From positions 1-41,938 of the forward strand of contig JAJYIF010000025.1 in assembly GCA_021790195.1 (NCBI GenBank): a DNA stretch of 41,938 nt. Direction: 5' to 3'. The notes under the pieces were generated by a model. It saw only the letters and a program-made list of their open reading frames with translations. It made no database searches and had not been told where the DNA came from. Shown here one piece after another: positions 38,704-41,938 of this stretch; position 1 is the first letter of the stretch; every line of letters starts with the position of its first letter. The translations under genes and the position numbers were made by a program. Source of the stretch: Nitrospirota bacterium. Lineage in GTDB: Bacteria; Nitrospirota; Thermodesulfovibrionia; Thermodesulfovibrionales; UBA9159.

Positions 38704-40683
38704 ATGAAAAAAATTATTTGCCTCTCGTCTGTTATTTCATCTCTTCTATTCTTTGCTTCGCCTGTTTTTGCCTCACCAAGCGACAACGAAGATCTTCAGT
38801 TGGCAGCGTCCCATAATACCGACAAAGAGACCGTGAAAGAACTGCTCCTCTTCTGGGACGAAAAGGACCTTTACGTACAGTCAGCCACAAGGTATGAAAA
38901 ACCGATCTCGCAGGTGGCAGAAAATATGACCGTGATCACTGCTAAAGAGATCGAAGACATGAACGCGCATACTGTAGCCGAGGTGTTGAACAGGGTCACA
39001 GGCGTCTTCGTTGATTCCGCTGAGGATTTCGGAAGCAGCTCTCAAATCCATATACAGAGTTCTATTCATCCCAGTTTTCCGGAAAGGCATGTGCTTGTGC
39101 TCCTGGATGGCGTTGAATGGAATATGCTAAATGACGGGCACGCGGAGACTGTTTCGATACCGGTAGGAATAATAAAGCGCATCGAGGTGATCAAAGGCCC
39201 TGCCTCTTCCTCATGGGGATCATCCCTCGGCGGCGTTGTAAATATCATAACGAAAGATACTGGAAATACGCCCCAGCCCTCCGGAAGTCTGAGCGCGTCC
39301 TATGGAGAAGCGAATTCGCAGGATTACAGGGGGGAGATTTCGGGCAAGGCCGGTCCTGTGGGATATTATCTTTACGCAGGCAAACAGAGGTCCGACGGCT
39401 TGAGAAACAACAGGCTTTTCGACAACTACAGCCTCTATTCCAAATTCAGTGTCCCAGTTTCGCCGGATGTAAATGTCGGCTTCACCCTCGGCTACAGCGA
39501 GCCGCGCATGAATTCTTTAGAGTCACAGGAGCTTGATTTATCATCACGACTCTTCTTCCGCACTTTTTTCGCCACAGCAAATGTCGATGCAGTTATCTCG
39601 CCTGAACTAACCTTAAATTTTGCACTCCGCACATTTCAGCAGAAGGCGGGGCAGTTGAACAATATCCTAAGCACAGGAGATGTATTTTTGAACAATATTA
39701 CTGACGAAGAGACTACGGGAGGCAGCGCCAAGCTCGTATGGAAGCATGGTATCCATACCGCTGTTTTCGGCGTGGACGCAAGCCACGGCAGGGACGACCA
39801 GACGCTTGAGGGCATAGTCGCTTCCAGCCCTCATTCCGACATCGACAAGTGGGCGATATTTGCCAATGATACAATATCTCTCGGCAGACTCTCTGTCACT
39901 CCCGGACTGAGGTTCGACCACAACAACATTACCGGCTCCTTTACGAGTCCGAGTCTCGGCGCGACGTATAAAATTGCGGAAAGGACTATCCTAAGGGCCT
40001 CTGTCGCGAGGGGCTTCACTATCCCTCCCCTCGGATGGACTGCGGGAGGCGGTTTTTTCCTCGATCCAAATCCCGACCTAAAATCCGAGAGCGTATGGTC
40101 TTATCAGGCGGGTATAGAGTCGGGCATCTGCGACTATTTATGGGTGAAGGCGACAGCCTTCTACCATGACCTGAAGGATGCTATTGTGAAGGAGCCCTTT
40201 GCGGGCGGGCCGCCCGGATGCGTTGGGTCTGCATGCAATGACCTCTTCGTGAATGATGGTAAGGTCAAGCGCAAAGGTATCGAGCTGGAGGCCGAGACAG
40301 CTCCCTTTCATAATTTCTCTCTTAAAGCCGGCTTTGCCTACGCGCACACAAAGACCATTTCGGATTCAGATACTTTGCCGGGTCCGGCCCCAAGCGCGGC
40401 CTACGAATATAACATAACCGCTAAGTACGAAGACCCCGGTAACTTTATGGTACAGCTTTTCGGTCATTATGGATGGTGGGACATAACATCGCCTGATGAA
40501 GGGGCGAAGTATAATGCCTTCATCTGGGACCTTAATCTAAGAAAGACTATATATACAACTGGCAAGAGAAGCGCCGAAGTTTTCCTCACCGGCTATAATC
40601 TGTTCAATGGCTCCCAGTATACACTCATCACCGCAAAGAACCCAAAGAGATGGTTCGAGGGCGGCGTGAGGCTCAGGTTTTGA
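38704..40683 (+). CDS. TonB-dependent outer-membrane receptor
   Basis: A 659-residue outer-membrane transporter. After a signal peptide (KIICLSSVISSLLFFASPVFA), residues about 75-190 form the plug domain (SQVAENMTVITAKEIEDMNA, EVLNRVTGVFVD, VLLDGVEWN, IKRIEVIKGPASSSWGSSLGGVVNIIT). The rest is a beta-barrel of alternating strands ending in a terminal aromatic residue (GGVRLRF), the usual signal for the BAM machinery. The size lies within the siderophore/haem/cobalamin/metal receptor range; the ligand cannot be read. GGGGGAG lies five bases before the ATG. Energy would come from TonB-ExbB-ExbD encoded elsewhere. Confidence 0.9.
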   Translation: MKKIICLSSVISSLLFFASPVFASPSDNEDLQLAASHNTDKETVKELLLFWDEKDLYVQSATRYEKPISQVAENMTVITAKEIEDMNAHTVAEVLNRVTGVFVDSAEDFGSSSQIHIQSSIHPSFPERHVLVLLDGVEWNMLNDGHAETVSIPVGIIKRIEVIKGPASSSWGSSLGGVVNIITKDTGNTPQPSGSLSASYGEANSQDYRGEISGKAGPVGYYLYAGKQRSDGLRNNRLFDNYSLYSKFSVPVSPDVNVGFTLGYSEPRMNSLESQELDLSSRLFFRTFFATANVDAVISPELTLNFALRTFQQKAGQLNNILSTGDVFLNNITDEETTGGSAKLVWKHGIHTAVFGVDASHGRDDQTLEGIVASSPHSDIDKWAIFANDTISLGRLSVTPGLRFDHNNITGSFTSPSLGATYKIAERTILRASVARGFTIPPLGWTAGGGFFLDPNPDLKSESVWSYQAGIESGICDYLWVKATAFYHDLKDAIVKEPFAGGPPGCVGSACNDLFVNDGKVKRKGIELEAETAPFHNFSLKAGFAYAHTKTISDSDTLPGPAPSAAYEYNITAKYEDPGNFMVQLFGHYGWWDITSPDEGAKYNAFIWDLNLRKTIYTTGKRSAEVFLTGYNLFNGSQYTLITAKNPKRWFEGGVRLRF

Positions 40684-40768: not shown

Positions 40769-40907
40769 TTTGGGGAGTTGAGACATGGTGCCTCTTAGTT
40801 TATTTATAGTTTTATAATTATTATTTATATGACTTTTCTGTTTTATCTGATAAAATTGCGAAGCCTGTTTTGCTGGCAAATATCTAATGGAGGGAGGATT
40901 CATAGAA

Positions 40908-41003
40908 ATGACAGGAATCAAAGTTCTGGACTGTGGTATCGATATGGAAGAGATAGCAGGCCCCATGGCATGCTGTGCTACCATTGCCATGGTGACTAGA
41001 TAA
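40908..41003 (+). CDS. Putative RiPP (geopeptide-like) precursor peptide, 31 aa
   Basis: A short gene beginning MTGIKVLDCGIDMEEIAG and continuing with a PMACCATIAM segment to a VTR end. Its three cysteines are C9, C22 and C23. An AGGGAGG ribosome site lies ten bases upstream. It stands 73 bp before a radical SAM maturase on the same strand, separated by an intrinsic terminator. A tiny Cys-containing peptide next to such an enzyme is the classic layout of a ribosomally made, post-translationally modified peptide. The maturase resembles what databases call the putative geopeptide maturase (from memory), which would make this a geopeptide. The acidic first half would be the leader-like part and the CC region the modified core; this split is inferred. 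Confidence 0.72.
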   Translation: MTGIKVLDCGIDMEEIAGPMACCATIAMVTR

Positions 41004-41008
41004 GCAAA

Positions 41009-41049
41009 AAAAGGGCAGGGAGCGGAAAGAATACGTTCCCTGCCCTTTT
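41009..41049 (+). terminator. Strong hairpin between precursor peptide and maturase genes
   Basis: AAAAGGGCAGGGAGCG (41009-41024) pairs over 16 positions (one G-T) with 41034-41049, around a 9-base loop, followed by CTATTTTCTCT. It starts six bases after the peptide stop. It probably ends most transcripts after the peptide gene and lets a minority continue into the maturase, giving excess substrate over enzyme. Confidence 0.85.
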
Positions 41050-41076
41050 CTATTTTCTCTAAGGACTTCTTAATCT

Positions 41077-41820
41077 ATGCAGCTTTCCAATTACATCAAG
41101 ACATATCCTTACGAAGAAACCCCCGGTCATTTTCTTGTTTATTCCACCAGGAAGACATCCGTATCTCTTATTTCCGAAAAAGTATTCGACGCAATCGAAA
41201 ACGATTCCCTTTCCGCTGAAGACGAAGCGTCTCTTTTGAAACTCGGTATCATCGTGCCGGACAGAGAAGCTGAGAAGCGCGACATGCGTTTCATGATGGA
41301 TAATCTTAACGCGAAAGACCGCTGCGTAAACATAAGCGTGATCATCAACCTGTCGTGTAACTTCACTTGCGTCTACTGCTATGAGGGAGGCTTAAAGGGC
41401 AGCCATTACATGAGCGAATATACCGCCGGCCTTCTGATAAACTTCATCAAAGAAAGATTCACCGGAAACAAGAACCTGATCAACCTGGATTTCTACGGCG
41501 GCGAGCCCCTGCTCAGCGCCGGCCTTATCAAAGAGATATCCGAATCCCTTAAGTCGTTCGCCTCGGAAAGAGGGGCATCATATACTTTTTCTCTGGTCAC
41601 TAACGGTTCACTTTTTACACGGAAGATAGCCGAGGAGCTCGTCCGCTGCGGGCTCACAGCAGTGCGGATAACCATAGACGGCGACGCAGAGACCCATAAC
41701 AGATACAGGCCCTTCAGAAACGGCGCGGGGAGCTTCGACACGATAATCGAAAATGTAAAAGAGACCTGTGACCTCGTGAAGACGGGAATTGGTGGGAACT
41801 TCGACAAGACGACTTACTAA
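41077..41820 (+). pseudogene. Radical SAM peptide maturase, truncated
   Basis: The 247 residues present begin with a PqqD-like or leader-recognition-like N-terminal region (about 1-75) and then the radical SAM core. The [4Fe-4S]-binding motif is C94-N-F-T-C98-V-Y-C101, followed by the DFYGGEPLLS SAM-binding motif and VTNGSLF. The protein stops at residue 247 after GGNFDKTTY, inside the barrel. Relatives that modify peptides continue to roughly 400 residues or more, with a C-terminal SPASM domain holding auxiliary clusters; that part is missing. The break falls just before foreign-looking DNA with an opposite-strand reading frame, so I infer truncation by insertion. The start ATG at 41077 has AAGGA 11 bases upstream. 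Confidence 0.75.
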
Positions 41821-41845
41821 GGAGGTCATAAGTAAAGCCCCGTAA

Positions 41846-41938
41846 TTAGGCCGCATACCTGAGATTGGGCTCACGGAAGAACCCGCATATTTTTTCCGGA
41901 TCACGTTGGAGAGACTTCAGGTAATATCTCACCTTCTC
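41846..41938 (-). CDS. C-terminal end of an unidentified protein running off the window
   Basis: On the minus strand, the last 93 bases read as an open frame with 30 codons ending ...DPEKICGFFREPNLRYAA and a TAA stop (complement of 41846-41848). It enters from beyond the right edge. The clean frame up to the window edge, and its position immediately after a truncated gene, suggest the tail of a transposase or other inserted gene. The family cannot be named from this fragment. The 25 bases between this stop and the broken maturase would include the element end. Confidence 0.4.
   Translation of the reverse strand, partial: EKVRYYLKSLQRDPEKICGFFREPNLRYAA

Follow-up and report, generated by a model that had tools for sequence, protein, structure and literature searches.

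A probable geopeptide-type radical SAM peptide cassette with a dedicated TonB receptor and an insertion-split maturase in a Nitrospirota bacterium

The geopeptide pair, a precursor (TIGR04229) and its maturase (TIGR04280), is curated in NCBIfam. The open-licence literature searched yielded neither a function for the pair nor a geopeptide paper, and hence no description of a TonB receptor, periplasmic binding protein (SBP) and kinase context; it is this receptor and sensor context that is the source of interest in the locus described here. The locus resembles the geopeptide system in its maturase family, by a wide margin, in the LDxG...CC layout of the precursor and in the order of peptide then maturase. 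It differs in that the precursors scored here all remain below the 30-bit cut-off of TIGR04229 (best relative, 23.3 bits) and in that the maturase copy is interrupted in the window, the whole stretch of 41,938 nucleotides that was analysed, which forms one end of a contig (G000:C4:1-41938). CteB, the SCIFF ranthipeptide maturase (PDB 5WGG, 5WHY), is, among solved structures, the one that a related intact maturase matches best, both by sequence and by Foldseek, with the RRE included, although identity is ∼22% and the CteB substrate is a Cys-rich SCIFF peptide rather than a CC peptide. The PapB-type ranthipeptide maturase (NF047865) is likewise a radical SAM/SPASM RiPP maturase and ranks fourth among the NCBIfam matches of the window maturase half, with 109.5 bits (cut-off 340) for a query that is half a gene, whereas TIGR04280 gives the same half 295.8 bits. 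Methanobactin operons carry a short Cys precursor, a maturation enzyme, a dedicated TonB transporter and an exporter (PMC3621798). The window likewise has a dedicated TonB transporter gene beside the precursor (38704-40683), but the chemistry is that of a radical SAM enzyme here and of MbnB/MbnC there, and the bacterium's own genome contains no match to the MbnB family (PF05114) at E <= 0.001 in a search that detected its controls.

The precursor gene (40908..41003, + strand) translates to MTGIKVLDCGIDMEEIAGPMACCATIAMVTR, a peptide of 31 residues with cysteines at positions 9, 22 and 23, comprising a leader, MTGIKVLDCGIDMEEIAGPMA, and a predicted core, CCATIAMVTR. A GGAGG Shine-Dalgarno sequence (40893..40897, + strand) lies ten nucleotides before the ATG, confirming the short frame with a good ribosome site on which the original prediction was built. 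Cys9, listed in that prediction with the other two cysteines, is present as well but is a leader residue outside the predicted core, limited to a few close relatives. The peptide, with its CC pair near the C-terminus, is positioned directly 5' of a TIGR04280 gene. Against TIGR04229 it reaches only 13.6 bits (E 0.044), short of the curated cut-off of 30 bits, and further precursors were not found in its own genome with this model beyond two matches at E 0.16-0.32. The description of the pair as geopeptide-like is therefore right in kind, given the TIGR04280 match of the maturase (5.5e-88) and the homologous CC peptides upstream of related maturases, but does not extend to the precursor model; since the precursor falls below that cut-off, we call the system geopeptide-type and do not assign it to TIGR04229.

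The survey of related loci covered 396 genomes from this phylum. Matches at 1e-60 occur in 53 of them, and 40, with 47 loci, score above the TIGR04280 cut-off; 60 maturase loci were read in detail. Of the 47 maturases above the cut-off, 41 have a short ORF with CC close to its end no more than 460 nt upstream, contrary to the possibility raised with the original prediction that related maturases would have no homologous peptide upstream. One more CC-peptide locus, L076, is added once its true start is used, and in G006, from the same family and with an assembly gap in its maturase, an 82-residue CC ORF lies between receptor and maturase. Four full maturases above the cut-off have no recognisable precursor (L068, L069, L071, L115), and a selenocysteine (TGA) reading of precursor-less loci gave nothing convincing. 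Clade L078-L088, which does not reach the TIGR04280 cut-off and lacks CC peptides, was excluded from the precursor-locus counts; this sister clade of TIGR04280-like enzymes mostly has, as judged by eye, an oligopeptide-binding-like protein of ∼530 residues and then a kinase. Because CC had been used in ORF selection, an independent test was run with the LDxG motif alone: a short ORF with LDxG and a preceding Shine-Dalgarno sequence occurs at 30 of 56 related maturases, CC is present in 30/30 of these, and the two motifs together occur in 0/399 control upstream regions. In 39 of 41 precursors the CC pair is followed by a C-terminal tail of 7-10 residues, and it is this constant distance that defines the core. 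Given the enrichment of LDxG and CC at related maturases, the window precursor is confirmed, on comparative grounds, as a real gene beyond chance. Long leaders made of Lys/Thr/Ala repeats are found at 11 loci (L063, L064, L065, L070, L093, L094, L109, L111, L112, L118 and L119), and mapping this label on the maturase tree gives three changes on several branches, with the CC core kept; the repeat leaders resemble histone H1 tails. At L062, two tandem CC precursors (-353..-239 and -178..-76, oriented from the maturase) precede one maturase.

The spacer between precursor and maturase contains a hairpin of 16 pairs (41009..41049, + strand), which probably acts as a leaky terminator or stabilises the 3' end of the mRNA. 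Its perfect stem (41009-41024 with 41034-41049) encloses a loop of 9 and starts 5 nt past the precursor stop codon. The minimum free energy of the spacer is -30.4 kcal/mol, compared with -16.0 +/- 3.0 for shuffles (z -4.85; 0/200 shuffles equally stable), which bears out the predicted stem. The tail 3' of this hairpin is moderately T-rich, and a strict terminator scan of the window spacer made no call despite the strong fold. A strong hairpin, identified by eye, is present in 44/44 related spacers examined, and terminator-like hairpins, with a stem of -9 kcal/mol or better ahead of a T-rich stretch, are found in 38 of the 44 against 10.5 expected from shuffles. Several hairpin spacers (e.g. 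L072, L074, L101, L107, L112) have no T tract, and part of the family may therefore rely on the hairpin to stabilise the mRNA 3' end instead of terminating transcription. Thus, the order of peptide, hairpin and maturase originally proposed is conserved, while its reading of the hairpin as a leaky terminator, though likely, does not extend to the whole family.

The downstream gene is the 5' fragment of a radical SAM/SPASM maturase (41077..41814, + strand) with an RRE-like N-terminus, CxxxCxxC (CNFTCVYC) and GGEP, from which the SPASM domain is gone. The predicted motifs are thus in place, but the ORF (41077-41820) represents only part of a gene: native codons run no further than 41814, and the stop codon (41818-41820) is inside a repeat. 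What lies from 41815 to 41938 is one end of a multi-copy insertion element by which the maturase is interrupted, and the contig breaks off inside this element. Contigs C45, C23, C9 and C50 end in 99-128 bases that match the sequence from 41815 at 99-100% identity. The 3' half of the maturase, on contig C37, directly follows element sequence whose outer 126 bases also end C22, C11 and C39, and the two element ends have similar terminal sequences in inverted orientation. The plain reading of these junctions is that an insertion sequence present in several copies sits in the maturase gene and that the assembly broke there. The 5' half covers TIGR04280 profile positions 1-247 of 428 (5.5e-88; next family 5e-38) and the 3' half positions 243-428 (3.2e-76), with 295.8 and 257 bits, respectively, against a curated cut-off of 400 that neither half of a split gene would be expected to reach by itself. 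The C37 half carries the SPASM domain (TIGR04085, 57.1 bits against a cut-off of 27), and the radical SAM motif and C-terminal SPASM domain of a geopeptide maturase are both found across the two halves. By its TIGR04280 match the enzyme groups with the geopeptide maturases and not with a non-peptide radical SAM family, as had been considered. A second intact maturase of the family was not found in the same genome (next best match 5.6e-13), a contig search with the truncated maturase as query returned two distant archaeal enzymes only, and in a plasmid search every match was below 60% identity, with the annotated matches belonging to other families. Owing to the split, the window copy is probably inactive and the precursor probably no longer modified in this genome; the split applies to one assembly and may not extend to every cell of the source population. 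The element, whose sequence ends all of the contigs named above, breaks the assembly at several sites, and other genes of this genome may therefore be split likewise.

All 52 maturases compared share CxxxCxxC and GGEP without exception, and their SPASM cysteines are almost as constant. An AlphaFold model of the intact L096 maturase (pLDDT 93.6) has CteB as its best Foldseek match, and alignment of the two with VIA-align 2 spans residues 3-426 (Z 27-28, rmsd 4.4-4.5, 384-397 residues), the RRE included; anSME enzymes give an equal Z over the catalytic part only. The CteB leader binds the RRE as a beta strand (PMC8326336), and the hydrophobic IKVLD stretch of the CC precursors fits such an arrangement. 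Given the CteB-like fold of the model, thioether formation on the CC core would be the leading guess for the chemistry.

The first gene of the cassette (38704..40683, + strand) encodes a TonB-dependent outer-membrane receptor of 659 residues, with a PF07715 plug and a PF00593 barrel, that is 60-63% identical to the same-position receptors of L096, L098, L105, L107 and L114 and is one of 2 PF00593 barrels in its genome. Within the one phylum from which the TonB-receptor link is drawn, a receptor lies directly upstream on the same strand at 39 of 41 testable CC-peptide loci (exceptions L081 and L085); two further loci reach a contig end upstream and hence are not counted as testable. TonB barrels are few in the 40 geopeptide genomes, and where a genome has a single barrel it is located at the geopeptide locus (11/11). 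Pairwise distances correlate most strongly between maturase and receptor (r 0.84-0.90), then between maturase and precursor (0.63-0.74) and between maturase and SBP (0.37-0.50), values that are owed partly to shared ancestry. In the two-cassette genomes G290, G324 and G227, however, receptor and maturase track cassette type rather than genome: the receptors of the two cassettes within one genome are 39-43% identical, whereas receptor and maturase alike are 74-79% identical when G324 and G227 are matched by cassette type. No alignment column of the receptor reaches 25% Cys, so that a conserved Cys was not found. Judged by these comparisons, the receptor is dedicated to the cassette and diverges together with the maturase.

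The gene order read from these loci is TonB receptor, CC peptide, hairpin and maturase, then often a half-size MFS protein, a PF04392 protein and a sensor kinase. On C37, the maturase half is followed by the half-MFS gene, the PF04392 protein and a 741-residue hybrid kinase, and the order in the bacterium's own genome (window plus C37) is that of L096, L098, L105 and L114. The locus, at first taken to be compact, is actually a cassette of about six genes including a TonB receptor and a sensory module. Clustering of the neighbours of 60 loci gave as recurrent members the TonB receptor (50), kinases/regulators (48), an SBP of ∼300 residues (37) and the half-size MFS (8). The one PF04392 protein of this genome is located in the cassette; a CxC motif (around GFxxxCxCxV) is found in most cassette PF04392 SBPs and is absent from the window clade. 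Neither a protease nor a full exporter is conserved at cassette loci, neither an immunity gene nor a metal-related neighbour is conserved among the cassette neighbours, and no ABC permease cluster or transporter gene recurs beside the SBP. The half-size MFS proteins, of 185-194 residues, cover the N-terminal half of PF07690 only (e.g. L027:12177-12758, - strand), and such a gene also lies just 3' of the maturase in L096, L098, L105, L114, L062, L069, L081 and L091; their very regular length argues against pseudogenes, and they are a possible candidate for the exporter of the peptide. A sigma-54 promoter upstream of precursors, as an NtrC-type feedback link, was considered and rejected (3 found versus 1.3 expected). 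L092, and that locus only, has a perfect sigma-54 promoter consensus, TGGCACAATTGTTGCA, 96 nt upstream of its precursor.

The best explanation, which we hold with reasonable confidence, is a geopeptide-type radical SAM RiPP cassette in which a CteB-like enzyme cross-links a CC peptide, a dedicated receptor takes the product up again and the cell senses it. Beyond the observed gene order, conservation, receptor-maturase co-divergence, hairpin and split maturase, we infer precursor excess, modification, export, re-uptake, sensing and cargo along the following lines. The hairpin would end or shield most transcripts, and precursor would on that account be in excess over maturase. The hydrophobic leader strand (IKVLDxG) may dock on the RRE-like maturase N-terminus, placing the core, two adjacent cysteines and 7-10 residues, under the action of the radical SAM/SPASM domain, with a thioether as the most probable product. 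The product would then be exported, with the half-size MFS as candidate route in the window clade, and re-imported across the outer membrane by the cassette TonB receptor, alone or with a ligand such as a metal, to be perceived by the PF04392 protein and the hybrid histidine kinase. Besides serving transporters, SBPs have a known role in activating receptor kinases (PMC9602780). It is a tentative further step, one that we place somewhat short of probable, that export, TonB re-uptake and periplasmic sensing form a self-contained circuit in which the matched receptor keeps two cassettes per cell separate and the product is a radical-SAM metallophore or an actively imported pheromone.

Two readings of the product fit, and we make no choice between them. 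A peptide metallophore, possible but doubtful in our estimate, would be the best explanation with a metal as cargo: the modified CC core would bind a soft metal (Cu, Zn or similar) and return loaded via the TonB receptor. The adjacent cysteine pair in every precursor, the dedicated receptor and the CxC of most cassette SBPs outside the window clade are consistent with this, as is the precedent of methanobactin, in whose operons a TonB transporter and an exporter likewise accompany a short Cys precursor (PMC3621798). Yet the genome has no MbnB-family protein, the window-clade SBPs are without CxC, no metal-related neighbour is conserved, and the thiols would be lost if both cysteines turn into thioethers. 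The product may instead be a peptide pheromone, a density or kin signal imported through TonB and read out by SBP and kinase by analogy with LuxP-LuxQ, an idea that we also regard with some doubt. This is suggested by SBP and kinase/regulator genes within the same cassettes, by an SBP with no conserved ABC permease cluster alongside, by the ability of SBPs to activate receptor kinases (PMC9602780) and by the co-divergence of receptor, precursor and maturase; however, of the cassette parts compared the SBP co-diverges least (r 0.37-0.50) and the sigma-54 feedback site was not found.

Other readings of the locus are less likely still. Some modified peptides enter cells via TonB receptors, and an antimicrobial peptide, with the receptor providing immunity or uptake into competitors, would fit that pattern; it is improbable given that neither an immunity gene nor a dedicated exporter is conserved and that the receptor is encoded with the producer and co-diverges. 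That the precursor is a chance ORF beside a radical SAM enzyme acting on another substrate could be argued from its shortness, its low TIGR04229 score and the broken enzyme, but this is already contradicted by the homologous loci, where both motifs occur upstream of 30 of 56 maturases against 0 of 399 controls and the distance from CC to the C-terminus is fixed, and we consider it highly improbable.

The curated precursor model misses those peptides of this phylum that were scored here, and annotation of the genome carrying the window would list a short radical SAM gene with the split unnoticed. The matched receptor and sensory module of the geopeptide-type cassette make an orphan peptide a testable uptake-and-signalling system.
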